This document shows positions 430 through 10,978 of a stretch of 33,129 nucleotides of DNA, one piece after another. Within the stretch, counting starts at the first letter, position 1. Each line of letters starts with the position of its first letter. The stretch is from a virus. Under the pieces are notes generated by a model, which was not told the origin of the DNA, ran no database searches, and saw nothing but the letters and a program-made list of their open reading frames with translations. A program made the translations under genes and the position numbers. The DNA is taken from positions 1 through 33,129 of the IMG/VR virus record IMGVR_UViG_3300006071_000050, one strand, 5' to 3'.

Positions 430-500
430 GCTTCGTTCGTCTAGCGGACAGGACGCCGACCGGGAAGGTCGGGAACATGGGTTCGAATCCCATACGAGGG
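430..500 (+). pseudogene. Degenerate tRNA, anticodon position GGA
   Basis: D stem GTCT/GGAC, anticodon stem CCGAC/GTCGG and T arm ATGGG/CCCAT with loop TTCGAAT are all present. However, the first acceptor pair is G-G, the anticodon loop CGGGAAG lacks U33, and no CCA follows, unlike almost every other tRNA here. The GGA anticodon would be Ser, yet the variable loop is short. It is probably a decayed tRNA, although post-transcriptional CCA addition cannot be excluded. Confidence 0.5.
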
Positions 501-529
501 TTACGACTTTATATAAAGAAAGGAAGATC

Positions 530-769
530 ATGTTCTATGAAAAGTGCGCTGAGATCCTCGGCGTGACCTACGAATGTGAATCTTTCCCTTATCGCTATCG
601 CACTCGCTGGAACAATCGTTCAGCAGGTAATGGTAGGTTTGAGGGCTACGGAATAATCAGAAAGTTTGGTGATCACTATCAAGTGGCGTTAACTCGTCCG
701 ATAGCACATCACGCTATCTATCGTTCCGAAGAAGAAGTATTCGCATTCCTGAGAAGTTTATCTCAATGA
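530..769 (+). CDS. Small hypothetical protein (79 aa)
   Basis: The ATG at 530 is chosen because AAAGGAAG lies 5 nt upstream; a longer in-frame start at 428 would run through the tRNA-like gene. The product is basic, rich in Arg and aromatic residues, with no signal peptide or membrane segment. It starts 29 nt after the degenerate tRNA, and its stop lies at the edge of the first copy of the covarying hairpin element. I do not recognise a family. Confidence 0.6.
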   Translation: MFYEKCAEILGVTYECESFPYRYRTRWNNRSAGNGRFEGYGIIRKFGDHYQVALTRPIAHHAIYRSEEEVFAFLRSLSQ

Positions 770-861
770 TAGACTTATTAGATGAACACACAGGACGGAC
801 ATAGGCCCCGTAACACGGGCGAGAATGGTGGTGACGACAGTGTGTTCTTCTAATAAGTTTA
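770..861 (+). ncRNA. Covarying hairpin element, copy 1
   Basis: The 21-nt arms 770-790 and 841-861 pair throughout except for one U-U mismatch and one G-U pair. The inner half is GATGAACACA against TGTGTTCTTC, shared by all three copies; the outer half differs between copies but keeps pairing. The apical part holds a CCCG/CGGG hairpin. The right arm ends 2 nt before tRNA-Phe, so a role as a cleavage or processing site is inferred. Confidence 0.6.
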
Positions 862-863
862 CT

Positions 864-939
864 GCCTGGGTAGCTCAGTTGGTAGAGCAGGAGACTGAAA
901 ATCTCCGTGTCGGCGGTTCGATTCCGTCCCCAGGCACCA
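864..939 (+). tRNA. tRNA-Phe(GAA)
   Basis: Fully regular cloverleaf: acceptor GCCTGGG/CCCAGGC, D stem GCTC/GAGC, anticodon stem GGAGA/TCTCC with loop CTGAAAA, T loop TTCGATT, encoded CCA. It lies 2 nt after the covarying hairpin element. Confidence 0.96.
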
Positions 940-944
940 GTTTA

Positions 945-1060
945 TGTGTTGTCCCTAAGGAAGTGAAAAAACCCATTGGGAGTCTGGCCGGATCGACGGG
1001 TGACGCCTCACTCGGATCCCAAATGACAAGTAGCTTTTAGTGTAACGACTAAACAACACA
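945..1060 (+). ncRNA. Structured intergenic element A
   Basis: TGTGTTGT (945-952) pairs with ACAACACA (1053-1060). Inner hairpins include GGGA...TCCC around 978-1020 and TTTAGT/ACTAAA near 1036-1053. No protein reading frame with a ribosome site fits. Together with element B it fills the 318 nt between tRNA-Phe and the HNH gene. Confidence 0.4.
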
Positions 1061-1065
1061 CCTAA

Positions 1066-1199
1066 TTACTCGCGTGTGTACAGTATGCCGTATGAGATAG
1101 GGGACATTCTCAATTCTCTCCTATGTACCCGAAGGCTGTAGCAGTAGTTGAAAGATACTATCAGTGATTTAATTTGAGACATGGATCACGGCGAGTAAA
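1066..1199 (+). ncRNA. Structured intergenic element B
   Basis: ACTCGC plus GTG (1068-1076) pairs with CAC plus GCGAGT (1187-1196) with one bulged base. Within it GGGACAT can pair with ATGTACCC. It follows element A directly and ends just before the late promoter of the HNH gene at 1258. No known RNA family is recognised. Confidence 0.4.
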
Positions 1200-1220
1200 T
1201 ACTAAATTGGTAGACTAAAT

Positions 1221-1228
1221 GATAAATA
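1221..1228 (+). promoter_or_regulatory. T4-type late promoter box GATAAATA
   Basis: The GATAAATA box lies 37 nt before the ATG of the HNH gene. By T4 geometry RNA would start near 1234. AATTGG (1205-1210) and CCAATT (1239-1244) flank the box, the right arm abutting the AAGGAA ribosome site; only read-through RNA would contain both arms. Confidence 0.65.
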
Positions 1229-1257
1229 GTTGTGTCACCCAATTAAGGAACACTACT

Positions 1258-1920
1258 ATGAGTAAAAGAGGGCCCAAGAAAGCAGAAGCAATAATAACTA
1301 CTGAATTATGTAGTTATGGATGTGGTTTGGTTGCAAACTTTAGAAACAAGTCAGGTAAACTGATGTGTGGTCCTGGAGCCGCTTCCTGCTCTGAGATTAA
1401 AAAGAAAAACTCCGCTGCCGGAAAAGCAGCATATGATTCCGGGCAACGACCTTCTGCGAAAGAGGCTTATGAATCGTTATCTGATACTGCCAAAAATAAC
1501 ATGAATTGGAATGCAGGAAAACGATATGCAGATTTCTCACATAATGGAAAGGGTCAGCACAAAAGCGCACTAATTGCTGAGAGAGGATATTGTTGTGAGG
1601 GTTGTGGACTCTCTGAGTGGAGAGGAAAACCGATTGTTCTTGAATTGGAGCATAAAAACGGCGACCGCAAAGATAACACAAAGGATAACCTTGAATTACT
1701 ATGCCCTAACTGTCACGCACAGACTCCTACTTGGAGAAAGGGTTGGGTAAAAGGGTTCAAAACAAGTAGATACACCGATGAGCAGCTAATAGCTGCTATC
1801 AAGGATTCAGAAAACTTGAATCAGGTATTAGAAAAATTAGATTTACGATACGGATCAGTTAAGAAGATAGTAAATCTAATATCAGAACATAATATTTCTT
1901 TTAAGAGGAAATTAAACTAA
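1258..1920 (+). CDS. HNH homing endonuclease with N-terminal zinc-finger-like domain
   Basis: Predicted free-standing HNH endonuclease (220 aa) that would cut DNA, probably spreading its own gene within the tRNA array. Residues 18-45 form a Cys-rich module (CSYGCG, then two more Cys), also present in the products at 6262 and 9472. The nuclease core spans about residues 112-160: Cys pairs CEGC and CPNC with the HNH signature LEHKNGD...N...CPNCH (His132, His153). The C-terminal 60 residues are Lys-rich and may bind DNA. ATG 1258 is chosen because AAGGAA lies 7 nt upstream; an in-frame start at 1219 lies before the late transcription start. The gene ends 11 nt before tRNA-Leu(TAG). Confidence 0.9.
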   Translation: MSKRGPKKAEAIITTELCSYGCGLVANFRNKSGKLMCGPGAASCSEIKKKNSAAGKAAYDSGQRPSAKEAYESLSDTAKNNMNWNAGKRYADFSHNGKGQHKSALIAERGYCCEGCGLSEWRGKPIVLELEHKNGDRKDNTKDNLELLCPNCHAQTPTWRKGWVKGFKTSRYTDEQLIAAIKDSENLNQVLEKLDLRYGSVKKIVNLISEHNISFKRKLN

Positions 1921-1931
1921 ATAAAATCAAC

Positions 1932-2009
1932 GGGGCTATGGGCAAATTGGTAAAGTCGTTACGTTTAGGCCGTAAAGTTCTCCCGGTTCGAGTCCGGGTA
2001 GCCCCACCA
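1932..2009 (+). tRNA. tRNA-Leu-like(TAG) with short variable loop
   Basis: Acceptor GGGGCTA/TAGCCCC, anticodon stem TTACG/CGTAA with loop TTTAGGC (anticodon TAG), T arm CCCGG/CCGGG, CCA encoded. The D arm resembles Leu tRNAs, with a three-pair GGC/GTC stem. The variable loop is only 6 nt, whereas bacterial Leu tRNAs carry a long arm, so its charging identity is uncertain. Confidence 0.85.
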
Positions 2010-2020
2010 AGTTTCACGAA

Positions 2021-2120
2021 GGTGGTATGTAGGACAGGTGAAAATGTCCGAGGACCGGGATTCCCTCTACCCGCACCAATCATAACGTCGATGAGGGTTC
2101 GAGTCCCTTCATCCGTACCA
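2021..2120 (+). pseudogene. tRNA remnants (two decayed tRNA pieces)
   Basis: The region 2093-2120 is a good tRNA 3' half: T stem GAGGG/CCCTT with loop TTCGAGT, then CATCCGT, A and CCA. It is preceded by CATAAC, like the 3' side of a Met anticodon loop, but no partner acceptor strand is found. Upstream, 2021-2079 holds an anticodon-arm-like hairpin (GGACA/TGTCC) and a tail ending GCACCA without a proper T arm. Both look like leftovers of tRNA loss or recombination. Confidence 0.5.
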
Positions 2121-2123
2121 AGC

Positions 2124-2131
2124 GATAAATA
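2124..2131 (+). promoter_or_regulatory. Late promoter GATAAATA with masking repeat
   Basis: The predicted start is near 2137. The repeat ACTCTC (2131-2136)/GAGAGT (2142-2147) covers the GGAG ribosome site (2141-2144). RNA started at the late promoter would lack the left arm, while read-through RNA would have it and mask the site. Confidence 0.7.
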
Positions 2132-2150
2132 CTCTCAATAGGAGAGTACA

Positions 2151-2324
2151 ATGGATCCAAAACTTCAAGCACAAATCAAAGATTATCTAGCTAATAATCT
2201 AACCCTCTCATATGAGATTACTCCTGACATGTATGGCATTAAGCCAGATCAAATAACGTTTCAGTTGAATCTTGAGGGTGAACCTATCAATACAGTAGTA
2301 TTATACAGCTTAACAGGAAATTAA
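2151..2324 (+). CDS. Small hypothetical protein (57 aa)
   Basis: The 57-codon frame starts at ATG 2151 with AGGAG 6 nt upstream and a late promoter box at 2124; this clean signal set is the main reason to call it. The product starts MDPKLQAQIKDYL and looks soluble and acidic with an amphipathic N-terminal helix, and no Cys or membrane segment. It sits between tRNA remnants and tRNA-Leu(CAA), ending 5 nt before the tRNA. I do not recognise a family. Confidence 0.7.
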   Translation: MDPKLQAQIKDYLANNLTLSYEITPDMYGIKPDQITFQLNLEGEPINTVVLYSLTGN

Positions 2325-2329
2325 GTTTT

Positions 2330-2415
2330 GCCCGTATGGTGGAATCGGTAGACGCGCCTGACTCAAAATCAGGTATCCAAAAGGTGTGGGGGTTCAAGTC
2401 CCTCTACGGGCACCA
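2330..2415 (+). tRNA. tRNA-Leu(CAA)
   Basis: Class II tRNA: acceptor GCCCGTA/TACGGGC, anticodon stem CCTGA/TCAGG with loop CTCAAAA, long variable arm, T loop TTCAAGT, CCA encoded. Confidence 0.96.
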
Positions 2416-2424
2416 AATTATCTA

Positions 2425-2444
2425 CTCGGTTCGAGTCCGAGCTA
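2425..2444 (+). pseudogene. Isolated tRNA T-arm remnant
   Basis: CTCGG/CCGAG around loop TTCGAGT is a perfect T arm, but no acceptor strand, CCA or anticodon arm accompanies it. It lies 9 nt after tRNA-Leu(CAA) and is best read as a relic of a deleted tRNA. Confidence 0.5.
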
Positions 2445-2449
2445 AACAT

Positions 2450-2704
2450 AGGGATGGCCTCCTAATGACATGAGGTGCTCACAGGGAGCGGATACTAAAG
2501 TTTTGTAGTGGGTGTTGGAAGTAATAGTCACAGAGCCTATACTGGCCAGTTGAATCTCTGTAACGGATGACGGTTCAAGTACGCAAAATGGAAACCATCT
2601 GACAACGACTTCAACAACGCACCCTAGTATATACCGGCGCTTTTAATAGGTATGGAATGCTGCTGATGTTGTGGTACAGCAGGCCCACTATAAAATCATT
2701 CAAT
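2450..2704 (+). ncRNA. Structured intergenic region
   Basis: No protein gene is seen. GGGTGTTG-GAAGT (2510-2522) pairs with ACTTC and CAA, then CACCC (2608-2624), with small bulges; inside are ACAGAG/CTCTGT and smaller hairpins. Downstream, ATACC/GGTAT (about 2632-2652) and TGCTG/CAGCA form two more stem-loops before tRNA-Thr(CGT). The pattern resembles the other stem-closed elements of this island. Confidence 0.35.
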
Positions 2705-2780
2705 GCTCTATAAGCATTGCTGGCGATGCGCTGGATTCGTAACCCAGAGATAACAGGTTCGATTCCTGTATAGAGCACCA
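2705..2780 (+). tRNA. tRNA-Thr(CGT)
   Basis: Acceptor GCTCTAT/ATAGAGC, perfect D stem GCAT/ATGC, anticodon loop TTCGTAA (anticodon CGT), T arm ACAGG/CCTGT, CCA encoded. The anticodon-stem pair nearest the loop is an A-C mismatch. Confidence 0.88.
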
Positions 2781-2781
2781 T

Positions 2782-2874
2782 GCACCTGTAGCTCAATGGT
2801 AGAGCGGTGAGCTTATACCTCATGATCGGCAGATTACCGAACGGTTGGGGGTTCAAGTCCCTCCGGGTGCACCA
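2782..2874 (+). tRNA. tRNA(TAT), Ile-type anticodon with long variable arm
   Basis: Acceptor GCACCTG/CGGGTGC, D stem GCTC/GAGC, anticodon stem GTGAG/CTCAT with loop CTTATAC (TAT, reading AUA), T arm GGGGG/CCCTC, CCA encoded. The variable region is over 20 nt with a CGG/CCG hairpin. A long arm is normal for Leu, Ser and Tyr but not Ile, so its charging is open. It begins 1 nt after the preceding tRNA. Confidence 0.8.
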
Positions 2875-2881
2875 ATTTAAT

Positions 2882-2967
2882 GCCCTGGTGGTGGAATGGT
2901 AGACACGCTACCTTGAGGTGGTAGTGGGCGAAAGCTCGTGGAAGTTCGAATCTTCTCTAGGGCACCA
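2882..2967 (+). tRNA. tRNA-Leu(GAG)
   Basis: Class II tRNA: acceptor GCCCTGG/CTAGGGC, anticodon stem CTACC/GGTAG with loop TTGAGGT (GAG), variable arm with GAAA loop, T arm GGAAG/CTTCT, CCA encoded. Confidence 0.95.
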
Positions 2968-2977
2968 AAGATTTCGG

Positions 2978-3006
2978 TTGACAATTCGGTCAATCAAATG
3001 TATAGT
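2978..3006 (+). promoter_or_regulatory. Sigma70-type early promoter
   Basis: TTGACA (2978-2983), 17-bp spacer, TATAGT (3001-3006). It follows tRNA-Leu(GAG) and drives the HNH gene at 3068. Confidence 0.75.
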
Positions 3007-3067
3007 GAAAACACAATAAGGAATTCACTTTGTAGATTACTAAATACAGGAAGAAACAGGAGTTTTT

Positions 3068-3634
3068 ATGGCAGTTCTAGCCCTTGACATTTCAGGTGTC
3101 CCGCGCACGTGGGTCTCCCACGACGAAGCGATTGCATATCACGCAAAAGACCTGGTAGCATGGAGCATGGGTGATGTGATCGCACGTTACCGAGGCGGTG
3201 TCCGAAAGGATGGCACTCGCAGCTATATTGAAACTCCTAGCATCATCGCTATTAAGGGTCATGGTTTTGACTTCAAGAAGCACAATAAGGTTGTGTTGAC
3301 GAATGGTACACTGTTCGCTCGTGACCGACACATTTGCGCTTATTGCGGTAATCATTTCACAAGTCGTAATGACTTGAGCCGTGATCACATTGTTCCTCGG
3401 TTCCACGGTGGTTTGGATGAATGGACTAACGTAGTTACTGCTTGCATTGACTGCAACCAAAAGAAGGGTTGTAAGTCGCTTAAGGAAGCTCGTATGGAAC
3501 TATTGTATATCCCTTACGAACCCAATCACTTTGAAAACTTGATTCTCCAGAATCGTAGCATTCTTGCTGACCAGATGGAGTATCTAATGTCAGGTGTTCC
3601 GAAGCACAGTCGTATTATGTTAAAGGCAGCGTAG
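3068..3634 (+). CDS. HNH endonuclease (188 aa)
   Basis: Predicted HNH nuclease of the single-domain kind common in bacteria and phages. The core spans residues 90-130: CAYC, then SRDHIVPRFHGG (Asp106, His107), Asn121 and CIDCNQKKG with the last Cys pair. The N-terminal 80 residues lack recognisable motifs. ATG 3068 follows ACAGGAG with 5 nt spacing. Unlike most endonucleases of this island it has a clear sigma70 promoter (2978) and no stringent late box, only CTAAATAC near 3041, so it may be made early. It is not closely similar to its HNH neighbours and was probably acquired separately. Confidence 0.9.
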   Translation: MAVLALDISGVPRTWVSHDEAIAYHAKDLVAWSMGDVIARYRGGVRKDGTRSYIETPSIIAIKGHGFDFKKHNKVVLTNGTLFARDRHICAYCGNHFTSRNDLSRDHIVPRFHGGLDEWTNVVTACIDCNQKKGCKSLKEARMELLYIPYEPNHFENLILQNRSILADQMEYLMSGVPKHSRIMLKAA

Positions 3635-3692
3635 GAAAATAAATCCACGTTGCTTTCAACTATTAAATATTATTAAGAGTTCATTCTCTCAT

Positions 3693-3767
3693 TCCCACGT
3701 AGCTCAGTGGCAGAGCCGACGACTGTTAATCGTCTGGTCGGTGGTTCGAATCCATCCGTGGGAGCCA
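3693..3767 (+). tRNA. tRNA-Asn(GTT)
   Basis: Acceptor TCCCACG/CGTGGGA, D stem GCTC/GAGC, anticodon stem GACGA/TCGTC with loop CTGTTAA, T arm GGTGG/CCATC, discriminator G and CCA encoded. Confidence 0.96.
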
Positions 3768-3773
3768 ACTTAA

Positions 3774-3822
3774 AACCTCTAACCTGCAAACTTTTGATAA
3801 ATAGATTTACAGGTTAGAGGTT
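3774..3822 (+). promoter_or_regulatory. Late promoter inside a 13-bp inverted repeat that masks the ribosome site
   Basis: AACCTCTAACCTG (3774-3786) is perfectly complementary to 3810-3822, whose AGAGG (3816-3820) is the ribosome site for the ATG at 3828. The late box GATAAATA (3796-3803) lies in the loop; T4 spacing puts the start near 3809, at the right arm. Read-through RNA should fold and hide the site, late RNA should not. This is the logic known for the T4 endonuclease I-TevI. Confidence 0.8.
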
Positions 3823-3827
3823 ATATT

Positions 3828-4379
3828 ATGAGTTATAGATCAGAAAGCGTAAAGCGTTGGAGAGAAAACACCAAAGATAAAATGGTAGAAGCAATGGGCA
3901 GCAAATGTCAATGTTGCGGATATAATAAGCATACTGCTGCGCTGGCGTTTCATCACATTGATCCTAGTCAGAAAGACATTGGATTTGGTGGTGCTAGAGC
4001 AAACCCAAAGGCATGGCCTAAGATTGTAAATGAACTTAGAAAGTGTATACTGGTATGTCACAATTGCCATAGTGAGATTCATGCAGGCGTTAGAGAGCTT
4101 CCGGAAACGTATGAAGTGTTTAATGAAGCATTTGCTGATTTTAAAAAAGTGTCAGAATATGATGCTTGTCCTATCTGCAATGATAAAAAACCTATTGCTC
4201 AAAAGTTTTGTAGTCATATATGCGCCCAAAAGAACAGTAGAAAAGTTGACTGGGACAGCATTGATTTGTTAGACTTGCTTGATAAACACGGGATTGGGGA
4301 ACTAGAAAATATTCTAGGTGTTTCTAATGCTGCTATATACAAGAGAAGAAACAAGTTATTAAAGAACACGCCGGCTTAG
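3828..4379 (+). CDS. HNH endonuclease whose stop lies in tRNA-Thr
   Basis: Predicted free-standing HNH homing endonuclease (183 aa). The nuclease core is at residues 27-85: CQCC, FHHIDP (His42, His43), CILVCHNCHSEIH with the second Cys pair and the final His. A second Cys cluster (CPIC...FCSHIC, about 115-133) may be a zinc-binding target-recognition module, and the C-terminal 40 residues look like a helix-turn-helix (LDLLDKHGIGELENILGVSN). The last codons and the TAG stop (4377-4379) lie inside tRNA-Thr(TGT): the stop is the TAG of its TTAGCTC. Expression appears limited to late RNA by the repeat at 3774-3822. Confidence 0.9.
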   Translation: MSYRSESVKRWRENTKDKMVEAMGSKCQCCGYNKHTAALAFHHIDPSQKDIGFGGARANPKAWPKIVNELRKCILVCHNCHSEIHAGVRELPETYEVFNEAFADFKKVSEYDACPICNDKKPIAQKFCSHICAQKNSRKVDWDSIDLLDLLDKHGIGELENILGVSNAAIYKRRNKLLKNTPA

Positions 4380-4445
4380 CTCAGGTGGTAGAGCGCGTCA
4401 CTTGTAATGACGATGCCAGGGGTTCGACTCCTCTAGCCGGCACCA
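4370..4445 (+). tRNA. tRNA-Thr(TGT)
   Basis: Acceptor GCCGGCT/AGCCGGC, anticodon stem CGTCA/TGACG with loop CTTGTAA, T arm AGGGG/CCTCT, CCA encoded. Its first 10 nt are also the end of the upstream HNH gene. Confidence 0.96.
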
Positions 4446-4461
4446 TTCTTGAAAAAAGAGG

Positions 4462-4490
4462 TTGACATTCGTTTCAATCTTTAGTATAAG
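4462..4490 (+). promoter_or_regulatory. Sigma70-type promoter before tRNA-Arg
   Basis: TTGACA (4462-4467), 17-bp spacer, TATAAG (4485-4490), 20 nt before tRNA-Arg(TCT). Confidence 0.75.
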
Positions 4491-4510
4491 TAAACATGTA
4501 AAGAGAGATT

Positions 4511-4587
4511 GTCTCCATAGCTCAACTGGATAGAGTACGAGTCTTCTAAACTTGGGGTTGCAGGTTCGAGCCCTGCTGGGGACGCCA
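4511..4587 (+). tRNA. tRNA-Arg(TCT)
   Basis: Acceptor GTCTCCA/TGGGGAC, D stem GCTC/GAGT, anticodon stem CGAGT/ACTTG with loop CTTCTAA, T arm GCAGG/CCTGC, discriminator G and CCA encoded. Confidence 0.95.
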
Positions 4588-4590
4588 AAA

Positions 4591-4598
4591 CATAAATA
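4591..4598 (+). promoter_or_regulatory. Late promoter CATAAATA, leaderless arrangement
   Basis: The box begins 3 nt after the CCA of tRNA-Arg, and its last base is 6 nt before the A of the ATG at 4604. T4 late spacing would start the RNA on the start codon itself. Confidence 0.65.
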
Positions 4599-4603
4599 CT
4601 AAT

Positions 4604-5173
4604 ATGGGAAAGCGCACTTTAATACACGATATGCCTTGGCAAGAAGTACAAGCGTTGTATGATGCTGGTATGTCGCAGCGTGACCTGCAGGGAAAGTTTA
4701 GAATAGCATTCAAAACTTTTCAGAAAGCAAAACGACTTGGGTTGTTTGTTCCAAGAGACTTGTCTTCTGCGTGTAAACTAAGGGCAGCACTAAAGCCCGG
4801 CGACTACACCGAAGTCAGAAGTCAACGTCCGGAACTCGTAAACTATAGAGCAGACTGTTCATTCAAGTTTAATGTGTTTGACTTTCCAGATGAGTTTGAT
4901 ATTGTACTAGTTGAACAGCACGGTTGGTATAAAGCTACAAATCGTGGTAATAATTTAACAGGTGTCAGTAGAGACCATATTGTGAGTGTGAGATACGGAT
5001 TTGATAACGGAATTGATCCGTCAATAATCTCTCACCCTGCTAACTGTCAACTATTACAGCATGGCACAAATGTGTCAAAAGGTAAAAAATGTGACTTGAC
5101 AATTGAAGAACTTTTTGTTAAGATCAGTAAATGGAATGATAAGTATAATAAAGTTTCTGGGGACGTAAGCTAA
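4604..5173 (+). CDS. HNH-like endonuclease ending inside tRNA-Ala
   Basis: Predicted homing-type nuclease (189 aa). Residues 10-50 look like a helix-turn-helix (MPWQEVQALYDAGMSQRDL...), and a C-terminal HNH-like core carries SRDHIVSVRYGF, then HPANCQLLQ and N..KGKK, a variant I associate with phage HNH proteins; it lacks the paired Cys of the zinc-bound type. There is no Shine-Dalgarno before ATG 4604: the late box at 4591 sits so that transcription would begin at the ATG. The last five codons and the TAA stop (5171-5173) overlap tRNA-Ala by 15 nt. The HNH call rests on motif spacing only. Confidence 0.75.
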   Translation: MGKRTLIHDMPWQEVQALYDAGMSQRDLQGKFRIAFKTFQKAKRLGLFVPRDLSSACKLRAALKPGDYTEVRSQRPELVNYRADCSFKFNVFDFPDEFDIVLVEQHGWYKATNRGNNLTGVSRDHIVSVRYGFDNGIDPSIISHPANCQLLQHGTNVSKGKKCDLTIEELFVKISKWNDKYNKVSGDVS

Positions 5174-5232
5174 CGGGAAACTGGCGCCTTTGCAAGGCGC
5201 ACTTGAGGGTTCGATTCCCTCCGTCTCCACCA
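5159..5232 (+). tRNA. tRNA-Ala(TGC)
   Basis: Acceptor GGGGACG/CGTCTCC, anticodon stem GCGCC/GGCGC with loop TTTGCAA, T arm GAGGG/CCCTC, A plus CCA encoded. The D stem (AGCT/AACT) has one mismatch. Its first 15 nt are coding sequence of the upstream endonuclease gene, which may have shaped the odd D arm. Confidence 0.85.
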
Positions 5233-5248
5233 AACATTAATCCACCGT

Positions 5249-5325
5249 CGGGGATTAGCGCAGTCCGGTAGCGCACCTGCTTTGGGAGCAGGGGGTCGTA
5301 GGTTCGAATCCTACATTCCCGACCA
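5249..5325 (+). tRNA. tRNA-Pro(TGG)
   Basis: Acceptor CGGGGAT/ATTCCCG, D stem GCGC/GCGC, anticodon stem CCTGC/GCAGG with loop TTTGGGA, T arm GTAGG/CCTAC, CCA encoded. Confidence 0.96.
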
Positions 5326-5331
5326 TATAAT

Positions 5332-5407
5332 GCCTGAGTAGCTCAGCGGTAGTAGCGTTTCCTTTACACGGAAAATGTCGGGAGTTCGATCCTCTCCTCA
5401 GGTACCA
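5332..5407 (+). tRNA. tRNA-Val(TAC)
   Basis: Acceptor GCCTGAG/CTCAGGT with a G-U first pair, anticodon stem TTTCC/GGAAA with loop TTTACAC, T arm GGGAG/CTCTC, CCA encoded. Confidence 0.94.
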
Positions 5408-5412
5408 TATTC

Positions 5413-5448
5413 AAGGAAAGCTACAGATAATATCTGTAGTTTTTCCTT
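5413..5448 (+). terminator. Terminator-like hairpin
   Basis: CTACAGATA/TATCTGTAG (5421-5439) is followed by TTTTT, with an outer AAGGAAA/TTTCCTT pairing. It separates tRNA-Val from the late gene at 5507. Confidence 0.6.
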
Positions 5449-5452
5449 TTGT

Positions 5453-5460
5453 GATAAATA
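5453..5460 (+). promoter_or_regulatory. Late promoter GATAAATA
   Basis: The box lies directly after the terminator-like hairpin and about 46 nt before the SpeD-like gene, leaving a leader of about 40 nt. Confidence 0.6.
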
Positions 5461-5506
5461 GTTATTCACTGTCTGACAGTAAAATTGAAACGAAAGGTTT
5501 TATGAG

Positions 5507-5899
5507 TTGGCTCAAGTTAATAAGCACATCCTTGTTACAGGATATCTAGAAGAAGCTCCTACTGCGGAGTATGTTACGTTTCTTGAAGACTGGTTCAATC
5601 GTTTGGTTGAAGCAGTTGATATGAAGGTGTTAATTGATCCTATCTGTGTTTGGTGTGACGATGAAGGAAACGAAGGCGTAACGGGGATGGTTGGTATTAC
5701 TACCAGTCACTCATCTATTCATTTTTGGTCAGGTGAACCAAGTTTTTATAAGTTTGATCTATATTCATGCAAGGATTTCGCAATTGAAGCTGTAGCAGAT
5801 ATGCTCAAGGAACTTGGAACCTACAAGTTCACCTACACTGTAGTTGATCGCACAGATGATGAACATCCTGTGATTGACAGTGGTGTTGTCACTTTCTAA
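5507..5899 (+). CDS. SpeD-like pyruvoyl-dependent decarboxylase homologue
   Basis: Resembles the small prokaryotic S-adenosylmethionine decarboxylase fold (130 aa). Known SpeD proteins self-cleave at a Ser that becomes a pyruvoyl group. The segment TTSHSSIHFW aligns with the family ESHLTIHTWPE: Ser67 fits the pyruvoyl Ser, His72 the processing His, and Cys88 in DLYSCKDF the catalytic Cys. The residue before Ser67 is Thr rather than Glu, and the PE after Trp is replaced, so substrate and even self-cleavage are uncertain; some SpeD relatives are reported to decarboxylate ornithine or arginine. The start appears to be TTG 5507, with AAAGG about 9 nt upstream; the ATG at 5502 is out of frame and soon stops. 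It stands alone behind a terminator and a late promoter. Confidence 0.7.
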   Translation: MAQVNKHILVTGYLEEAPTAEYVTFLEDWFNRLVEAVDMKVLIDPICVWCDDEGNEGVTGMVGITTSHSSIHFWSGEPSFYKFDLYSCKDFAIEAVADMLKELGTYKFTYTVVDRTDDEHPVIDSGVVTF

Positions 5900-6036
5900 A
5901 TACCGAGGTTGGAGTTCCCGTGACTCCGTTGGTACCTGAGGACAAAGAGGAAAATAACACTAGTTTCCTCTCCTGCTGGGCCATAATCAAAACATGGGCG
6001 GATACGGAGAGAGTTGTGTTAACTCTCTCCCGACAT
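5900..6036 (+). ncRNA. Hairpin-rich region before tRNA-Trp
   Basis: Three perfect stem-loops follow each other: GGAGT/ACTCC (about 5911-5927), GAGGAAA/TTTCCTC (about 5947-5970) and GGAGAGAGTT/AACTCTCTCC (6006-6015/6021-6030). None has a long T run, so they look more like processing or spacer structures than terminators. No protein gene is seen. Confidence 0.45.
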
Positions 6037-6110
6037 GCGAGTGTGGTGTAACGGTAGCATGATGGTCTCCAAAACCATTCGTCGGGGTTCAAATCCCTGC
6101 ACTCGTGCCA
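6037..6110 (+). tRNA. tRNA-Trp(CCA)
   Basis: Acceptor GCGAGTG/CACTCGT, anticodon stem ATGGT/ACCAT with loop CTCCAAA, T loop TTCAAAT, discriminator G and CCA encoded. Confidence 0.95.
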
Positions 6111-6129
6111 AACTTTCTGAAAATAGTTC

Positions 6130-6158
6130 TTGACATTACTCTAACAATGTCGTATAAA
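6130..6158 (+). promoter_or_regulatory. Sigma70-type promoter
   Basis: TTGACA (6130-6135), 17-bp spacer, TATAAA (6153-6158), about 100 nt before the HNH gene at 6262. Its RNA would include both arms of the weak repeat around the late promoter at 6237. Confidence 0.7.
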
Positions 6159-6236
6159 GAGATATACAGAGTGAGAAACACATTCTGGTCTTTGACAATG
6201 TTGGTTAAGTTTTAAGTGAAAAGTCTGTCTACCAGG

Positions 6237-6244
6237 TATAAATA
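6237..6244 (+). promoter_or_regulatory. Late promoter TATAAATA
   Basis: Exact T4 late consensus; the predicted start near 6250 is just before AGGAG (6251-6255). GTCT-A-CC (6227-6233) or AGTCT (6222-6226) can pair with the region holding AGGAG in longer RNAs only. The pairing is short, so masking is tentative here. Confidence 0.7.
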
Positions 6245-6261
6245 CATTATAGGAGACTATT

Positions 6262-6882
6262 ATGTATTGTGAGTATGGGTGTGGACAGACTTCTCACTAT
6301 CTTCTTAAGAATGGCAAAAACTGCTGTTCTAAGAGACCGGCAGGCTGCCCGGAGATTAAAAGCAAAAACTCGCTTGCAACCAAACGGGTATATGCAACCG
6401 GTGCTAGACCTTCTGCGAAAGAAGCATATTCATCAATGAGCGAGGATGCTAAAACTCGCATGAATTGGAATAAGGATAAGTATCCTAACACTGTATTTGA
6501 ATACGGTGGAACTGGTAGTCATAAAGCTGTTCTCATCCAAGAACGCGGGCACAGGTGCGAAGCATGTGGATTAGAAGAATGGCAAGGTCATAAGGTTCCT
6601 CTAGAGTTAGAACATATTGATGGTGACAATAAGAACAACATTAAAGAAAATCTCAAACTACTATGCTGCAACTGCCACGCATTGACCGATACCTGGAGAG
6701 GTAGAAATATCAACTCAGGAAAGGTAAAAGTAAGTGACGATGAGCTATTGACAGCCCTTGAGGAATGTAGTAGTATAAGAAAAGCATTACAGAAAGTAGG
6801 TCTTACCCCAAAGGGAGGGAACTACGCTAGAGCTAACAAATTACGGGCGCGTGGCGAAATTGGTCATACGCAGGAGACTTAA
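6262..6882 (+). CDS. HNH homing endonuclease whose stop is the tRNA-Leu anticodon
   Basis: 206-aa paralogue of the product of 1258-1920: same Cys-rich N-terminus (CEYGCG...CCSKRPAGC), same linker block (PSAKEAY, MNWN) and same nuclease core (CEAC, LELEHIDGDNKNN, CCNCHALTDTW; His118, Asn130, His139). AGGAG precedes ATG 6262 by 6 nt. The final 13 codons run through the acceptor, D arm and 5' anticodon stem of tRNA-Leu(TAA), and the stop codon 6880-6882 coincides exactly with the tRNA anticodon. The C-terminal tail is thus dictated by the tRNA sequence, as if the gene was inserted so that its frame runs into the tRNA. Confidence 0.92.
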   Translation: MYCEYGCGQTSHYLLKNGKNCCSKRPAGCPEIKSKNSLATKRVYATGARPSAKEAYSSMSEDAKTRMNWNKDKYPNTVFEYGGTGSHKAVLIQERGHRCEACGLEEWQGHKVPLELEHIDGDNKNNIKENLKLLCCNCHALTDTWRGRNINSGKVKVSDDELLTALEECSSIRKALQKVGLTPKGGNYARANKLRARGEIGHTQET

Positions 6883-6931
6883 AATCTCCCGGATTTATTC
6901 CGTGTCGGTTCGAGTCCGACCGCGCCCACCA
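6845..6931 (+). tRNA. tRNA-Leu(TAA)
   Basis: Class II tRNA: acceptor GGGCGCG/CGCGCCC, anticodon stem GGAGA/TCTCC with loop CTTAAAA, long variable arm, T arm GTCGG/CCGAC, CCA encoded. Bases 6845-6882 are also HNH coding sequence. Confidence 0.96.
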
Positions 6932-6939
6932 AGTTTAGC

Positions 6940-7015
6940 GGCCCCTTCGTCTAGAGGCCTAGGACACTGCCCTTTCACGGCAACGACACGGGTTCGAATC
7001 CCGTAGGGGTCACCA
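6940..7015 (+). tRNA. tRNA-Glu(TTC)
   Basis: Acceptor GGCCCCT/AGGGGTC, anticodon loop CTTTCAC in a stem TGCC/GGCA with an outer C-A mismatch, T arm ACGGG/CCCGT, CCA encoded. Confidence 0.93.
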
Positions 7016-7020
7016 GTCGC

Positions 7021-7028
7021 TATAAATA
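7021..7028 (+). promoter_or_regulatory. Late promoter TATAAATA
   Basis: The box lies 6 nt after tRNA-Glu. The leader of about 40 nt to the lipoprotein gene carries a 6-bp hairpin (GATCCG/CGGGTC) and then AAGGAA. Confidence 0.75.
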
Positions 7029-7075
7029 CAGAGATCCGATGAAACGGGTCCAAAAAACAAAACAAGGAAAATAAC

Positions 7076-7273
7076 ATGAAGAAGATTGTTACTCTTGCTG
7101 CTGTTGCAGCACTAACTACCCTTGCTGCTTGCAGCGGTAAGGCTCCGGAAGCAGCCAGCACTGATGCTGCTACTAGCGCCGCATCTGACGCTGCATCTGA
7201 TGCTGCTACTGCCGCTGCTACTGACGTAGCTGGTGGTAAGACTGATCGTGATACTTCGGTAGAAGCCAAGTAA
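7076..7273 (+). CDS. Small Ala-rich lipoprotein (65 aa)
   Basis: The first 18 residues are a classic lipoprotein signal: MKK, a hydrophobic stretch of Ala, Leu, Val and Thr, then lipobox LAAC with Cys19 followed by Ser. Family knowledge says such a protein is cut before the Cys, lipidated, and held in a membrane. The mature part is a low-complexity Ala/Ser/Asp stretch with repeated SDAA-type units and a short charged end, so it may act as a spacer or envelope modifier rather than an enzyme. AAGGAAAATAAC precedes ATG 7076, and a strong late promoter is at 7021. A role in lysis or superinfection exclusion is possible but unproven. Confidence 0.8.
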   Translation: MKKIVTLAAVAALTTLAACSGKAPEAASTDAATSAASDAASDAATAAATDVAGGKTDRDTSVEAK

Positions 7274-7290
7274 TCTAAAAGGAGCCAATC

Positions 7291-7518
7291 GTGGGTGAAG
7301 TTATTCACGTTGAGTTTGGTAAGATGGACATTGAAGAACAGGAGGTTCTAGGGGTAAACTTAGACCTTACTGCTTACTTGGACACATTGCGTAATCAAGG
7401 AATTATTGAAGATGACATTCTTGACATTATTGACGCAATCAACGACATGGATGCATACTTTGCCGCAGATGATGAGGTAAAGACATTCGCTGATGGTTGG
7501 CTCCAACAGTTTTTATAA
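7291..7518 (+). CDS. Small acidic protein (75 aa), GTG start
   Basis: GTG 7291 has AAAGGAG 7 nt upstream and lies 17 nt after the lipoprotein stop, so the two are probably co-transcribed from the late promoter at 7021. The product is strongly acidic and largely helical (EEDILDIIDAINDMDAYF), with no membrane segment. I do not recognise a family. Confidence 0.75.
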   Translation: MGEVIHVEFGKMDIEEQEVLGVNLDLTAYLDTLRNQGIIEDDILDIIDAINDMDAYFAADDEVKTFADGWLQQFL

Positions 7519-7524
7519 GTTAAT

Positions 7525-7610
7525 GCGTAGGTGGGTGAGTGGTTAATACCAGCAGACTGTAAATCTGCCGTCGTGAGACTACGTTGGTTCGAATCCAACC
7601 CTGCGCACCA
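7525..7610 (+). tRNA. tRNA-Tyr(GTA)
   Basis: Class II tRNA: acceptor GCGTAGG/CCTGCGC, anticodon stem GCAGA/TCTGC with loop CTGTAAA, long variable arm, T arm GTTGG/CCAAC, CCA encoded. Confidence 0.95.
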
Positions 7611-7616
7611 AACATT

Positions 7617-7635
7617 GCTCTTGTAGCTCAATAAT
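7617..7635 (+). pseudogene. tRNA 5' remnant
   Basis: GCTCTTGTAGCTCAATAAT matches the acceptor and D-stem start of a typical tRNA (TAGCTCAA), then breaks off into the next intact tRNA. It is read as a truncated duplicate. Confidence 0.5.
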
Positions 7636-7637
7636 AT

Positions 7638-7713
7638 GGTCCCGTAGCTCAATTGGTAGAGCTGGCCGCTCATAACGGCTAGGTTGTCGGATCGTGCCCG
7701 GCCGGGACTACCA
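7638..7713 (+). tRNA. tRNA-Met(CAT), elongator-type
   Basis: Acceptor GGTCCCG/CGGGACT, D stem GCTC/GAGC, anticodon stem GGCCG/CGGCT with loop CTCATAA, CCA encoded. The T loop starts ATCG instead of TTCG, as in tRNA-Asp at 58. A lysidine-modified Ile tRNA cannot be excluded. Its last 6 nt overlap the end of the antisense HNH gene. Confidence 0.88.
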
Positions 7714-8145
7714 CCAACGATTGCCCTTGCTACGATTCTCTTTGATAGTGAGATATTGCAGGTTATCTTCATGGTGCTTCCCTCCCTTTGAAAGGGGCAC
7801 AATATGATCAACTTCATGACCTTCGGGACAGTTGCGATATATCTCTTTTATCTTTGCAAGATTAGCGCCGGGGTCAAGAACTTTGTATTGTCTTGCGCGA
7901 TATCTGCTTTGACGCATTGCATTTGATTTTTTGAGGTGCTCCTCACTAACTCTAAGTGCATCTGAGCTACACTGCATAGAGCAATACTTCTTTGATGTAG
8001 TAATAGTTCCGCAATGAGCGCAAGGATGAGGAAACACCTTTCTTTCTACTCTGCAAACTCCGCGATTATTATGTTTAGCAGAGCAGGATTTTGAACAGAA
8101 TCTAGGATTTGACGTTTCTTTATCACAGTGAATGCATTTGTTCAT
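7708..8145 (-). CDS. HNH endonuclease on the opposite strand
   Basis: 145-aa HNH protein and the only reverse-strand gene in the tRNA island. The N-terminus has two Cys-rich zinc-ribbon-like modules (CIHC...FCSKSC and CAHC...YCSMQC). The nuclease core near the C-terminus reads CPEGHEVDHIVPLSKGG...HEDNLQYL...ENRSKGNRW. The TAG stop is read from 7710-7708, inside the CCA end of tRNA-Met, so the gene and tRNA converge and overlap by 6 nt. No Shine-Dalgarno is seen; a late box (AATAAATA on this strand, 8158-8151) ends 6 nt before the ATG, as in the leaderless genes on the other strand. Confidence 0.88.
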   Translation of the reverse strand: MNKCIHCDKETSNPRFCSKSCSAKHNNRGVCRVERKVFPHPCAHCGTITTSKKYCSMQCSSDALRVSEEHLKKSNAMRQSRYRARQYKVLDPGANLAKIKEIYRNCPEGHEVDHIVPLSKGGKHHEDNLQYLTIKENRSKGNRWW

Positions 8146-8150
8146 ACTAT

Positions 8151-8158
8151 TATTTATT
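8151..8158 (-). promoter_or_regulatory. Late promoter AATAAATA, leaderless arrangement (reverse strand)
   Basis: On the reverse strand the last base of the box is 6 nt before the A of the HNH start codon at 8145. Confidence 0.6.
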
Positions 8159-8219
8159 CCTATTGCGTTACGGTACGGTACTAGATTCGAATCATTTTTT
8201 ATAACACGCCTTACAAAGA

Positions 8220-8227
8220 GTTAAATA
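8220..8227 (+). promoter_or_regulatory. Late-type box GTTAAATA, leaderless arrangement
   Basis: A weaker match to the late consensus, but its last base is again exactly 6 nt before the start codon at 8233, and no ribosome site is present. Confidence 0.5.
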
Positions 8228-8232
8228 GACAT

Positions 8233-8895
8233 ATGAGAAAACTTTTTGCACTAGTAGCCCTTTTGTTTGCAACTCCTGTCTATGCACAGAGTAATCAAAC
8301 AACCGATGGAACTCATGCTGTATTAGCAGTAGGTGGAATGTTTACTGATCATGGTAATGCCACTGCTACTGTTGACGGCGAGTTGACTACGCAGTATGGT
8401 CGCTGGCAGGGAGTTTACGATATCAACTATAACTATCAGCAGAGCAAGAGTGTTGCAACTGTCAACATGGGTGCCGCTGAAATCAAGCGTAACTATGCAT
8501 TGAATGATAGAAACTATGTAATCGGTGATATTCGTTACGATTACAATCAGTTCCGTCCTTGGCAGAATACTTATGTTGTTGCAAGCGGCTGGGGCTATAA
8601 GGTTTATCGTAGCGATCATATCAAGGTCAGCAATGAGTTATCTGCTGGTTATAGACACACTGACGATGGTGACTACTTTGTTGCTCGTGACAGTGTTTGG
8701 TTCCGTTATTCAAATGGTCCATTGACCGCGTATAACAAGTTTCTTTATGAAAAGAGCAACATTGATTATTACCGAAATCAAGCTGCAATCACGTATAACT
8801 TGAATAATTTGGTTGCAATTGGTGTTCAAAATCTATATACTAGAGATATTAAAGAGAATGATATTACTAGCTTTACACTAGGTGTAAAGTTTTAA
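8233..8895 (+). CDS. Outer-membrane beta-barrel protein, DUF481-like (YdiY type)
   Basis: 220-aa protein with a cleavable signal peptide ([18 protein letters not shown], cut before Gln19). The rest alternates hydrophobic and polar residues in strands rich in Tyr, Asn and Trp and ends in Phe, the usual outer-membrane barrel signature. The pattern ([42 protein letters not shown], final FTLGVKF) resembles the DUF481/YdiY family. In the host it would be exported and inserted into the outer membrane; a phage could use this to block receptors or change permeability, which is inference. It has no Shine-Dalgarno and a late-type box 6 nt before the ATG. It is followed 7 nt later by tRNA-Ser(TGA). Confidence 0.8.
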
Positions 8896-8902
8896 CAAAT
8901 AC

Positions 8903-8990
8903 GGAGAGATGGCAGAGTGGTCGATTGCGGCGGTCTTGAAAACCGCTGAACTGCAAGGTTCCGTGGGTTCGAATCCCACTCTCTCCGCCA
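8903..8990 (+). tRNA. tRNA-Ser(TGA)
   Basis: Class II tRNA: acceptor GGAGAGA/TCTCTCC, anticodon loop CTTGAAA, long variable arm, T arm GTGGG/CCCAC, discriminator G and CCA encoded. Confidence 0.96.
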
Positions 8991-9008
8991 AGTTTAGAAA
9001 GTCCAAAT

Positions 9009-9413
9009 ATGTCGTATGTACTGTTTCTTGATGATGTTAGAAACCCTGACGATGTAACTTGGGCTGAATTCCCTCGCTTTGAGACTACATTCACTGTTCG
9101 CAACTATGAAGGATTTGTCAATCAAATCTCTCGCGGAGGAATGCCAGCTTTCGTTTGTTTTGATCATGATCTAGCTGACGAACATTATATAGCTATGCTC
9201 AAAGAAAACGAAAGTGATCCTGTCAAACAGCTTGAAACTATCGTAGACTATGGTACTGAAAAGACTGGTTACGATTGTGCCAAGTGGCTCGTTGACTATT
9301 GCAGTGAGAAAGGTTTCAAGTTCCCTAAGTACATTGTTCACTCAATGAACCCTGCTGGAAAAGAACGTATCACTGGATACATTGAAAATGCGAGAAAACA
9401 TTTGGATATATGA
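9009..9413 (+). CDS. Cyclic-phosphate-processing receiver-domain protein
   Basis: 134-aa protein with the compact receiver-like fold that Aravind and colleagues linked to RNA repair. [11 protein letters not shown] (residues 5-15) carries the acidic pair, [10 protein letters not shown] (about 47-57) the Asp-His-Asp motif, [12 protein letters not shown] the conserved Gly-Asp region, and [13 protein letters not shown] the final HS-N-G element. In this family the receiver phosphorylation site is replaced by these His/Asp residues, thought to act on cyclic phosphate ends of RNA or nucleotides. Its place amid tRNA genes fits tRNA or RNA-end repair after host nuclease attack, but that is inference. 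ATG 9009 has only a weak GAAAG upstream. Confidence 0.7.
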
Positions 9414-9442
9414 GGCTTAAACCACTTGTTTAACGAACAAAT

Positions 9443-9477
9443 GATAAATAGATCATACAAGGAAATAAAGTATGATC
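9443..9477 (+). promoter_or_regulatory. Late promoter with start-codon-masking repeat
   Basis: GATAAATA (9443-9450) is followed by GATCATAC (9451-9458), perfectly complementary to GTATGATC (9470-9477), which contains the ATG at 9472; the loop holds the AAGGAA ribosome site. The predicted late start near 9456 removes most of the left arm. Confidence 0.75.
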
Positions 9478-10170
9478 TGTGATTATGGTTGTGGTAGCAA
9501 AGCTATAAAAACGCTTAAGAACAGTAAAAACTGTTGTAGCAACTCACCAAGCTCTTGTCCTGCAATGAAGGCCAAGAATAGCGATAGAGTCAAAGCTAGG
9601 CGGGCTATAGCAGGTGACTCTTATTGGAAGAATGGGCACCCTAAGGGCAATACTAGCGGAAAGGCGTTGTTGGGTAAAACTTACGATGCATTGTACGGCA
9701 ATGAAGCACTTGCCCAACGCTTGTCCCGATCATTGGGTAATAAAGGAAAAGGCTCATACAAGAACTTTACTCCTGAACAGAAACTAGAACACGCTTCTCG
9801 TGCTAGAGAAAACATTCTTGCAAGATATGAATCCGGATGGATGCCAAAGGCAGGTAGGTGCAAGAAGATTCAGTATGTATCTCCGATCGCAGGCACTGTC
9901 TGGGTAGACGGCACCTGGGAGTTAGCGGTTGCTAAATGGCTAGACCTTAAAGGATATATGTGGAAACGAAATACTACACGATTCCCCTATACTAATCTTA
10001 AAGGTAACTTGAGTCATTACACTCCGGATTTCTACGTTGAAGAAATGGGAGGGTATTTAGAGATTAAGGGTTATGAAACTGCGCTAGATCGCTGTAAGTG
10101 GTCGCAGTTCTCTGAACCTCTCGTAGTCTGGAAGAAAAAAGATTTAGTAGAGAATAGCATACTAGAGTAA
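9472..10170 (+). CDS. Homing-type endonuclease: HNH-family N-terminus with PD-(D/E)XK-like nuclease
   Basis: 232-aa protein with the same Cys-rich N-terminus as the HNH proteins at 1258 and 6262 (CDYGCG...NCCSNSPSSCP, MKAKNS), but without the HNH core. Residues 60-130 contain basic repeats of the kind found in modular DNA-binding regions of homing enzymes. The C-terminal 100 residues hold PDFYVEE followed by YLEIKGY, matching the PD...(D/E)xK active site, preceded by a TWELAVAKWLD helix and NTTRFPY. This looks like a domain swap: one targeting module joined to different nucleases. Late-only expression is suggested by the repeat at 9451-9477. It ends 12 nt before tRNA-Ser(GCT). Confidence 0.82.
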   Translation: MICDYGCGSKAIKTLKNSKNCCSNSPSSCPAMKAKNSDRVKARRAIAGDSYWKNGHPKGNTSGKALLGKTYDALYGNEALAQRLSRSLGNKGKGSYKNFTPEQKLEHASRARENILARYESGWMPKAGRCKKIQYVSPIAGTVWVDGTWELAVAKWLDLKGYMWKRNTTRFPYTNLKGNLSHYTPDFYVEEMGGYLEIKGYETALDRCKWSQFSEPLVVWKKKDLVENSILE

Positions 10171-10182
10171 ATATATCTATAA

Positions 10183-10270
10183 GGAAGGTGGGCAGGCTGG
10201 TAATGCAGCAGATTGCTAATCTGTACAACCCGCAAGGGTTGAGTGGGTTCGATTCCCACACCTTCCGCCA
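10183..10270 (+). tRNA. tRNA-Ser(GCT)
   Basis: Class II tRNA: acceptor GGAAGGT/ACCTTCC, anticodon loop TTGCTAA, long variable arm with an AACCC/GGGTT hairpin, discriminator G and CCA encoded. Confidence 0.95.
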
Positions 10271-10279
10271 AGATAATGG

Positions 10280-10308
10280 TTGACATTCGTTCTGAATGTT
10301 GTTATAAG
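10280..10308 (+). promoter_or_regulatory. Sigma70-type promoter before tRNA-Cys
   Basis: TTGACA (10280-10285), 17-bp spacer, TATAAG (10303-10308). It drives tRNA-Cys, Ile, Lys and the gene at 10604. Confidence 0.75.
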
Positions 10309-10328
10309 AAATCTATAAAGAAATAAAC

Positions 10329-10416
10329 GCCCGGTTGGCAGAGCGGCCGAATGCAGAGGACTGCAAATCCTCCGAGAGTATTCTCCACGCAAGTTCAAAT
10401 CTTGCACCGGGCTCCA
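10329..10416 (+). tRNA. tRNA-Cys(GCA) with long variable arm
   Basis: Acceptor GCCCGGT/ACCGGGC, anticodon stem AGGA/TCCT with loop CTGCAAA, T arm GCAAG/CTTGC, discriminator U as usual for Cys, CCA encoded. The variable region carries a GAGA/TCTC hairpin, which is unusual for Cys. Confidence 0.9.
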
Positions 10417-10422
10417 TTATTT

Positions 10423-10496
10423 GGTTCTGTAGTTAAATGGTATAACGACCGACTGATAATCGGTCATTGGAAGTTCGATTCTTCCCGGAACCACCA
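10423..10496 (+). tRNA. tRNA-Ile(GAT)
   Basis: Acceptor GGTTCTG/CGGAACC, anticodon stem ACCGA/TCGGT with loop CTGATAA, T loop TTCGATT, CCA encoded. Confidence 0.95.
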
Positions 10497-10505
10497 AAGT
10501 TATAT

Positions 10506-10581
10506 GGACCGGTAGCTCAGTAGGTAGAGCATGGGCCTTTTAAGCCTAGGGTCGAGGGTTCAAGCCCCTCCCGGTTCACCA
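10506..10581 (+). tRNA. tRNA-Lys(TTT)
   Basis: Acceptor GGACCGG/CCGGTTC, anticodon stem TGGGC/GCCTA with loop CTTTTAA, T arm GAGGG/CCCTC, CCA encoded. Confidence 0.95.
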
Positions 10582-10603
10582 AATACACAGAAAGGAGAAG
10601 GCA

Positions 10604-10978
10604 ATGGGCTGGCGTGATACTCATGTAGACGTTAATGATATGCTTGGTAAGACCTTCTCTAAGGTTACTGCTACTATGGATACAGTAACGTTTGAAAACG
10701 ATGAAGTATGTTATGTGCTTTATCATGATCAAGATTGTTGCGAATCAGTGGTAGTTGAAGATATCAACGGTGATCTTGAAGACCTCGCGGGTTGGCCATT
10801 GCTAATCGCTCGTGAAGATCACAATGCGGATGGAACAAAATTAGATGAAGAATCCTATACGTGGACCTTCTACAACTTCGCAACCTTCAAGGGGTATGTG
10901 ACTATTAGGTTCCTCGGAACTTCAAATGGTTATTACAGCGAAAGTGTATATTGTAAGAAAGAAACTTTGAAAAAGTAA
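10604..10978 (+). CDS. Conserved phage protein, DUF7448-like (124 aa)
   Basis: The segment MLGKTFSKVTATMDTVTF, then VLYHDQDCCESVVVEDINGDLEDLAGWPLL, matches a small phage/bacterial family I recall as DUF7448, whose hallmark is the HDQDCCE(S)V motif; the function is unknown. The protein is acidic, probably beta-rich, with no signal or membrane segment. AAAGGAG is 7 nt before ATG 10604. It is the last gene of the transcript starting at 10280 and lies 22 nt after tRNA-Lys. The DUF number is from memory and not verified. Confidence 0.75.
   Translation: MGWRDTHVDVNDMLGKTFSKVTATMDTVTFENDEVCYVLYHDQDCCESVVVEDINGDLEDLAGWPLLIAREDHNADGTKLDEESYTWTFYNFATFKGYVTIRFLGTSNGYYSESVYCKKETLKK

Follow-up and report, generated by a model that had tools for sequence, protein, structure and literature searches.

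A complete class 1b SpeD/AdoMetDC homologue is encoded in a 33,129-nucleotide stretch of viral DNA (IMG/VR record IMGVR_UViG_3300006071_000050, positions 1 to 33,129), called the window below, and it is a genuine gene. On the aligned sequences, the protein falls in a distinct and strongly supported sub-branch of phage SpeD homologues, which is new. The gene has a fixed place in a tRNA array, directly before tRNA-Trp, and this is also new. Among the papers listed in our literature search, we found none on the sub-branch, its loop variation or its fixed place in the array. The idea that phage SpeD homologues have altered substrates was already published in 2023. Computation established the family, the fold, the conserved residues, purifying selection, placement in the decarboxylase group and the fixed gene position. 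We consider it probable that the protein is a self-cleaving SpeD-type enzyme that decarboxylates a basic amino acid, not AdoMet, and would raise the level of a diamine during infection.

Published phage SpeD homologues

Li et al. (2023) described phage SpeD homologues that are without AdoMetDC activity and have shifted to other substrates. In the passages of that paper on phage enzymes (PMC9992855), the homologue from HTVC201P decarboxylated arginine with a kcat/Km of 290. Five homologues from uncultured phages decarboxylated ornithine with kcat/Km values of 160-240; one of these was also active on arginine and another had trace arginine activity. According to the same passages, the homologues from phiN3, S-PM2, phiYS40 and P2559S restored spermidine, and that of phiN3 is reported as a bona fide AdoMetDC. 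The companion paper (PMC10407285) introduces the names SpeDA and SpeDC. Its passages on sequence marks give Gln, Thr, Phe and Tyr for SpeDC and describe a Pro that is fully conserved in AdoMetDC. By term counts and passages, PMC12619734, which deals with large phages of aquatic habitats, does not mention adenosylmethionine, polyamine or decarboxylase.

The gene and its start codon

The features of the gene and its surroundings are listed in Table 1. A sequence-only reading had described a SpeD-like gene with a TTG start and the residues T66-S67-H68, H72, W74-S75-G76 and C88, and we found each of them where that reading had placed it. TTG is the sole usual start codon that yields the full domain, as the next in-frame ATG is that of Met39. 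The same TTG start is common to all 24 close relatives. Another ATG lies 5 bases 5' of the TTG, out of frame, and opens a reading frame of 10-15 codons that overlaps the speD-like start (window 5502-5549). This upstream ATG is kept in 23 of the 24 close relatives and lost in L022; its overlapping reading frame may limit translation of the speD-like gene.

Compared with the window gene, the same-length relatives had dN/dS values of 0.026-0.118 (14 relatives where the ratio was computable; L021, of the same length but with saturated dS, is outside this range). A chance ORF was ruled out by the family score, the selection and the synteny.

Table 1. Features of the speD-like gene and its flanks in the window.
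Feature	Position	Strand	Basis
tRNA-Val (tac), upstream neighbour	5332..5407	+	next tRNA upstream in 24/26 relatives scanned
Hairpin, core CTACAGAT-AAT-ATCTGTAG then TTTTT, terminator-like, closing the tRNA unit	5413..5448	+	predicted
GATAAATA box, candidate (late) promoter element	5453..5460	+	conservation and enrichment; putative function
GAAAGG, candidate ribosome-binding site, 9 bases 5' of TTG	5492..5497	+	putative
SpeD/AdoMetDC-family proenzyme, 130 aa, TTG start	5507..5899	+	ORF call, profiles, predicted structure
Predicted beta chain, residues 1-66	5507..5704	+	alignment with T. maritima Ser63; predicted cleavage before Ser67
Ser67 codon, predicted pyruvoyl precursor	5705..5707	+	invariant
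His72 codon, equivalent to T. maritima His68	5720..5722	+	invariant
Hairpin loop residues 75-83 (SGEPSFYKF), Trp74 to Asp84, 9 residues	5729..5755	+	loop comparison
Cys88 codon, equivalent to T. maritima Cys83	5768..5770	+	invariant
tRNA-Trp (cca), downstream neighbour	6037..6110	+	next tRNA downstream in 26/26 relatives scanned

Family and predicted fold

The protein matched Pfam PF02675 with 45.7 bits (cut-off 25, E 8.9e-12) and PHROG 3125, 'S-adenosylmethionine decarboxylase', with E 4.5e-11. Against TIGR03330, the AdoMetDC equivalog, it scored 35.5 bits, which is under the cut-off of 75.65. All 43 rows of alignment A3 matched PF02675 at E <= 0.001. The AlphaFold2 model, made from an input alignment of 43 sequences, had a pLDDT of 93.5 and a pTM of 0.86. 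The best match among solved structures was Thermotoga maritima SpeD, both in Foldseek (E 2e-6) and in VIA-align (Z 13.6, rmsd 2.6 Å, 113 residues aligned). The PF02675 score, the predicted structure and the top rank of T. maritima SpeD in both structure comparisons support the SpeD fold and family claimed from the sequence.

The sequence-only reading had named two findings that would speak against it, a fold unrelated to SpeD and a lack of conservation of Ser67 and Cys88 among homologues. The predicted model is instead closest to T. maritima SpeD, and Ser67, His72 and Cys88 are present in all 24 close relatives. The same three residues are invariant in the 22 rows of alignment A1 and in the 43 rows of A3. 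The window protein looks like a functional enzyme of the group formed by the phage pyruvoyl decarboxylases.

Relatives and phylogeny

In IMG/VR, a scan with the window protein found 24 loci that share 61-94% identity with it; the longest of their contigs has 360,683 bases. Of the 600 candidate stretches in a wider alignment scan, at least 547 were confirmed, and we retained 80 loci, of which 14 lie on contigs already found in the first IMG/VR scan. Public phage records gave 22 matches at E up to 1, and 11 of these were Pelagibacter phages. The tree was built from a short alignment of 76 rows and 132 columns. It included 21 of 36 cellular rows; those omitted were BpsA fusions, rows that were degenerate or incomplete, and a number of duplicates.

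All 12 tree rows of the window's branch came together with support of 100/100, and this branch grouped with L050, L051 and L053 at 95/91. A phage group that includes both the window's branch and HTVC201P contained 47 rows (97/91), among them one archaeal row and one row from a bacterial MAG. When 13 long-branch rows were removed, the phage group with HTVC201P had 46 rows and support of 96/97. HTVC201P sits in the other half of the group from the window's branch. Constraint tests, with groups defined after viewing the first tree, rejected a clade that joins the window's branch to six AdoMetDC-like rows (p-AU 0.008) and did not reject one that joins it to phiN3 (p-AU 0.33). Given the short alignment and the choice of test groups in the light of the first tree, these results do no more than weaken the AdoMet reading.

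Cleavage-site residues and loop length

The sequence-only reading had taken the Thr before Ser67 and the changed residues after Trp74 as an altered cleavage site that marks a different substrate. Thr at position -1 turned out to be the rule across the phage group. It precedes the Ser in all 80 loci kept from the at least 547 confirmed stretches, as ETSH in 62 and as TTSH in 18, with L049 read by eye, so we dismissed the idea of a site peculiar to this protein. In HTVC201P the sequence at the site is IETSHIAFHSWDEDEP, so that a characterised phage arginine decarboxylase also has Thr at -1 and altered residues following the Trp.

These two residues alone are no substrate code, because three cases contradict it. 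An apparent SpeD-SpeE fusion, L115, from a Ca. Zambryskibacteria record reads STSHISIHSWPE with STSH, and so has Thr at -1; its synthase part was recognised by eye and its substrate is presumably AdoMet. The sister sub-branch (L024, L045, L047 and L048) retains Pro-Glu after the Trp, in HFWPE. The AdoMetDC of phiN3 has QDSHSSAHFCDV at the site, with neither Glu at -1 nor Pro-Glu. Neither Thr at -1 nor the missing Pro-Glu can therefore serve as the sole criterion of substrate. The proposed change of substrate keeps the support of kinship with phage SpeD homologues whose substrate has changed; the residues cited for it are insufficient by themselves.

Loop length was counted as the residues between the Trp and the Asp before the Cys, or their counterparts. 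The loop is 8 residues in the four assayed phage AdoMetDCs (S-PM2, P2559S, phiYS40 and phiN3) and in all 21 cellular rows used. HTVC201P has 10 residues, as do 62 of the 80 viral loci kept from the at least 547 confirmed, and the window's branch has 9, 12 or 6. Proteins of the L024 type, which retain WPE, have the loop of 6, and those of the L014 type the loop of 12. Two loops were read by eye, with 10 residues in L049 and 8 in L152. Loop length after the catalytic His appears to be the better mark of substrate, steadier than Thr at -1 or Pro-Glu.

The published marks were also compared. We equated the AdoMetDC Pro of PMC10407285, as its passage on that residue describes it, with the Pro of WPE. 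The column that we take to correspond has Ser75 in the window protein and Pro in L024, L045, L047 and L048; the AdoMetDCs of phiN3 and phiYS40 have no Pro there. At the SpeDC positions as placed from L147 and L148, the window protein has two of the four marks, Thr and Phe, and lacks Gln and Tyr.

The arginine decarboxylase of HTVC201P (AXH71538) shares with the window protein the SpeD family, the Ser/His/Cys residues, Thr before the Ser and the phage clade. Both have a loop longer than the 8 residues of AdoMetDC and an EGN-G segment. They are 28-32% identical, HTVC201P has ETSHIAFHSWDE where the window protein has TTSHSSIHFWSGE, and the loops are 10 and 9 residues. The HTVC201P gene adjoins genes for DNA polymerase and ribonucleotide reductase, whereas the window gene is in a tRNA array. 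The ornithine decarboxylases LBP and UCP01-UCP04, as described in Table 3 of PMC9992855, are HTVC201P-like proteins of 117-122 aa from freshwater or Lake Baikal phages. Their accessions are ATV46410, QMP83838, CAB5221556, CAB4131572 and CAB4162964. The AdoMetDC of Sinorhizobium phage phiN3 is likewise a class 1b homologue of a large phage, encoded near tRNA genes and with SHSS and HF motifs, but it has Asp at -1, a loop of 8 and no EGN-G, and is 26% identical. T. maritima SpeD (1tlu, 1vr7) has the fold and the counterparts S63, H68 and C83. It is 18-20% identical to the window protein, and differs in that Glu precedes the Ser, WPE follows the His and the loop has 8 residues.

Gene neighbourhood and upstream elements

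The window contains rIIA and rIIB homologues and 30 tRNA genes. Megablast of the rIIA/rIIB region gave no match among phage records. The tRNA genes lie on the + strand at window 58-14286, and small ORFs, HNH-type endonucleases among them, are scattered between them. The tRNA scan covered 26 of the 28 close relatives (L023 and L046 were left out), and several of their contigs are near-copies of each other. The exceptions to the upstream tRNA-Val were L012 and L024. In the next branch out (L050, L051 and L053), no tRNA was found in the stretch scanned.

The GATAAATA box lies 46 bases 5' of the TTG and 3' of the terminator-like hairpin. It was found in 18 of 19 upstream regions (the window and 18 relatives) and is absent from that of L022. 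Counting both strands, the window has 11 copies of KATAAATA, compared with 3.8 expected, and none of 100 shuffles reached 11. Conservation and enrichment together indicate that the box is more than chance. The T4 late box, TATAAATA, differs from it by one base. The box fits a putative late promoter of the gene's own, the late link being by analogy with the T4 box.

The + strand copies of KATAAATA are at window 1221, 2124, 3796, 5453, 6237, 7021, 9443, 13819 and 14323. About 8 of the 9 are 13-55 bases 5' of a plausible gene start, mostly of protein genes between tRNA genes. A palindrome, CTGTCTGACAG, is present between the box and the start (window 5469-5479); it is kept or nearly so in most relatives and absent from L006, L009 and L022. 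Elsewhere in the array, window 9009-9413 encodes a cREC_REC domain protein (cyclic-phosphate processing receiver, PF20274, 67.4 bits), with a possible link to cyclic-nucleotide signalling.

Other SpeD homologues

Several unusual homologues were noticed in the searches. L114/L127 and L115/L128 have a SpeD domain fused to a spermidine-synthase-like part, and Thr rather than Glu before the cleavage Ser. Microcystis phage MaAM05 (L030, MW495066) has an annotated cluster in which two speD copies adjoin speE and speB. The first kind of speD copy is canonical (SESH..WPE) and the other is divergent (AESHITFHSF), which makes the latter a candidate arginine decarboxylase. L157 (445-1818), from a genome that belongs to the phylum of G013, is a fusion of a BpsA-like branched polyamine synthase with a SpeD domain at its C-terminus. 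It and other long ORFs like it (L159-L164, L167) have SNSN or alike where SESH is expected. An archaeal MAG (G012, that of L113) gave six PF02675 matches (loci L130, L133 and L136-L139); L138 is a tandem ORF that contains two of these matches, and L137 has a long C-terminal extension.

Partner genes and probable function

Each of nine close-relative records, including those of 360,683, 333,115 and 179,497 bases, had one PF02675 match. No spermidine synthase, arginase/agmatinase, agmatine deiminase, CN-hydrolase or deoxyhypusine-synthase family was found in these nine records, which are possibly fragments. In the control genomes, each of the five families was matched in several. With no polyamine enzyme of these families alongside, a direct putrescine maker would need the fewest host partners; any partner could come from the host.

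We propose that the proenzyme folds as a class 1b SpeD-type protein and would then cleave itself before Ser67. The resulting alpha chain of 64 residues would begin with a pyruvoyl group formed from Ser67, and this group, with His72 and Cys88, would decarboxylate a basic amino acid. In the infected cell the gene would be expressed from a small transcription unit of its own inside the tRNA array. The diamine supply would rise, and host enzymes could convert the product to spermidine or homospermidine, aiding translation and replication. The most likely substrate is L-ornithine, giving putrescine; judged from the sequences, we hold this choice tentatively, at a little under an even chance.

An arginine decarboxylase of the SpeDA type, passing agmatine to a host agmatinase or agmatine deiminase, is the nearest alternative, though we think it unlikely. 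HTVC201P is the sole assayed member that can be placed inside the phage group, it is an arginine decarboxylase, and it has the Thr at -1 and the loop above 8 in common with the window protein. The passages of PMC9992855 on its relatives also report that the agmatine-using enzymes come from the host, not the phage. However, HTVC201P and the window's branch fall in different halves of the group, and the nine records contain no agmatinase, agmatine deiminase or CN-hydrolase, so that this reading requires a suitable host. An ordinary AdoMetDC that supplies a host spermidine synthase appears quite unlikely. It would agree with the SHSS and HF motifs common to bona fide phiN3, the grouping with phiN3 that was not rejected, the WPE of the sister sub-branch and the SpeD-SpeE fusion that also has Thr at -1. 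On the other hand, the clade with the six AdoMetDC-like rows was rejected, the score is far under the TIGR03330 equivalog cut-off, the loop length is unlike that of all four assayed phage AdoMetDCs, and spermidine synthase is absent from all nine records.

The distinctness of the branch and the two missing SpeDC marks could also point to a pyruvoyl enzyme with some other substrate, or to an inactive regulatory homologue, which we regard as highly improbable. Strong purifying selection and the invariance of every processing and catalytic residue disfavour an inactive form, and lysine was unused by every assayed homologue in the assay passages of PMC10407285. Very unlikely, too, is a separate functional class in the tRNA-array branch. 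This would be a diamine enzyme in a translation cassette before tRNA-Trp, with its own promoter, a TTG start limited by the upstream ATG, a reshaped loop (6, 9 or 12) and a substrate range unseen in SpeDA or SpeDC. Removal of AdoMet as a counter-defence is a weak suggestion, as a phage SAM lyase reached a Z of only 6.6 in VIA-align, a range that possibly reflects a common arrangement.

Decarboxylation of a basic amino acid, with ornithine as the leading candidate, remains our preferred explanation. The window protein and its relatives extend the phage pyruvoyl decarboxylases known from the 2023 work by a branch that is strongly conserved. They also show that Thr before the Ser and the loss of Pro-Glu are insufficient as naive substrate-switch residues. 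If the product is putrescine, the fixed place of the gene amid some 30 phage tRNA genes would link the polyamine supply of the phage to its translation.
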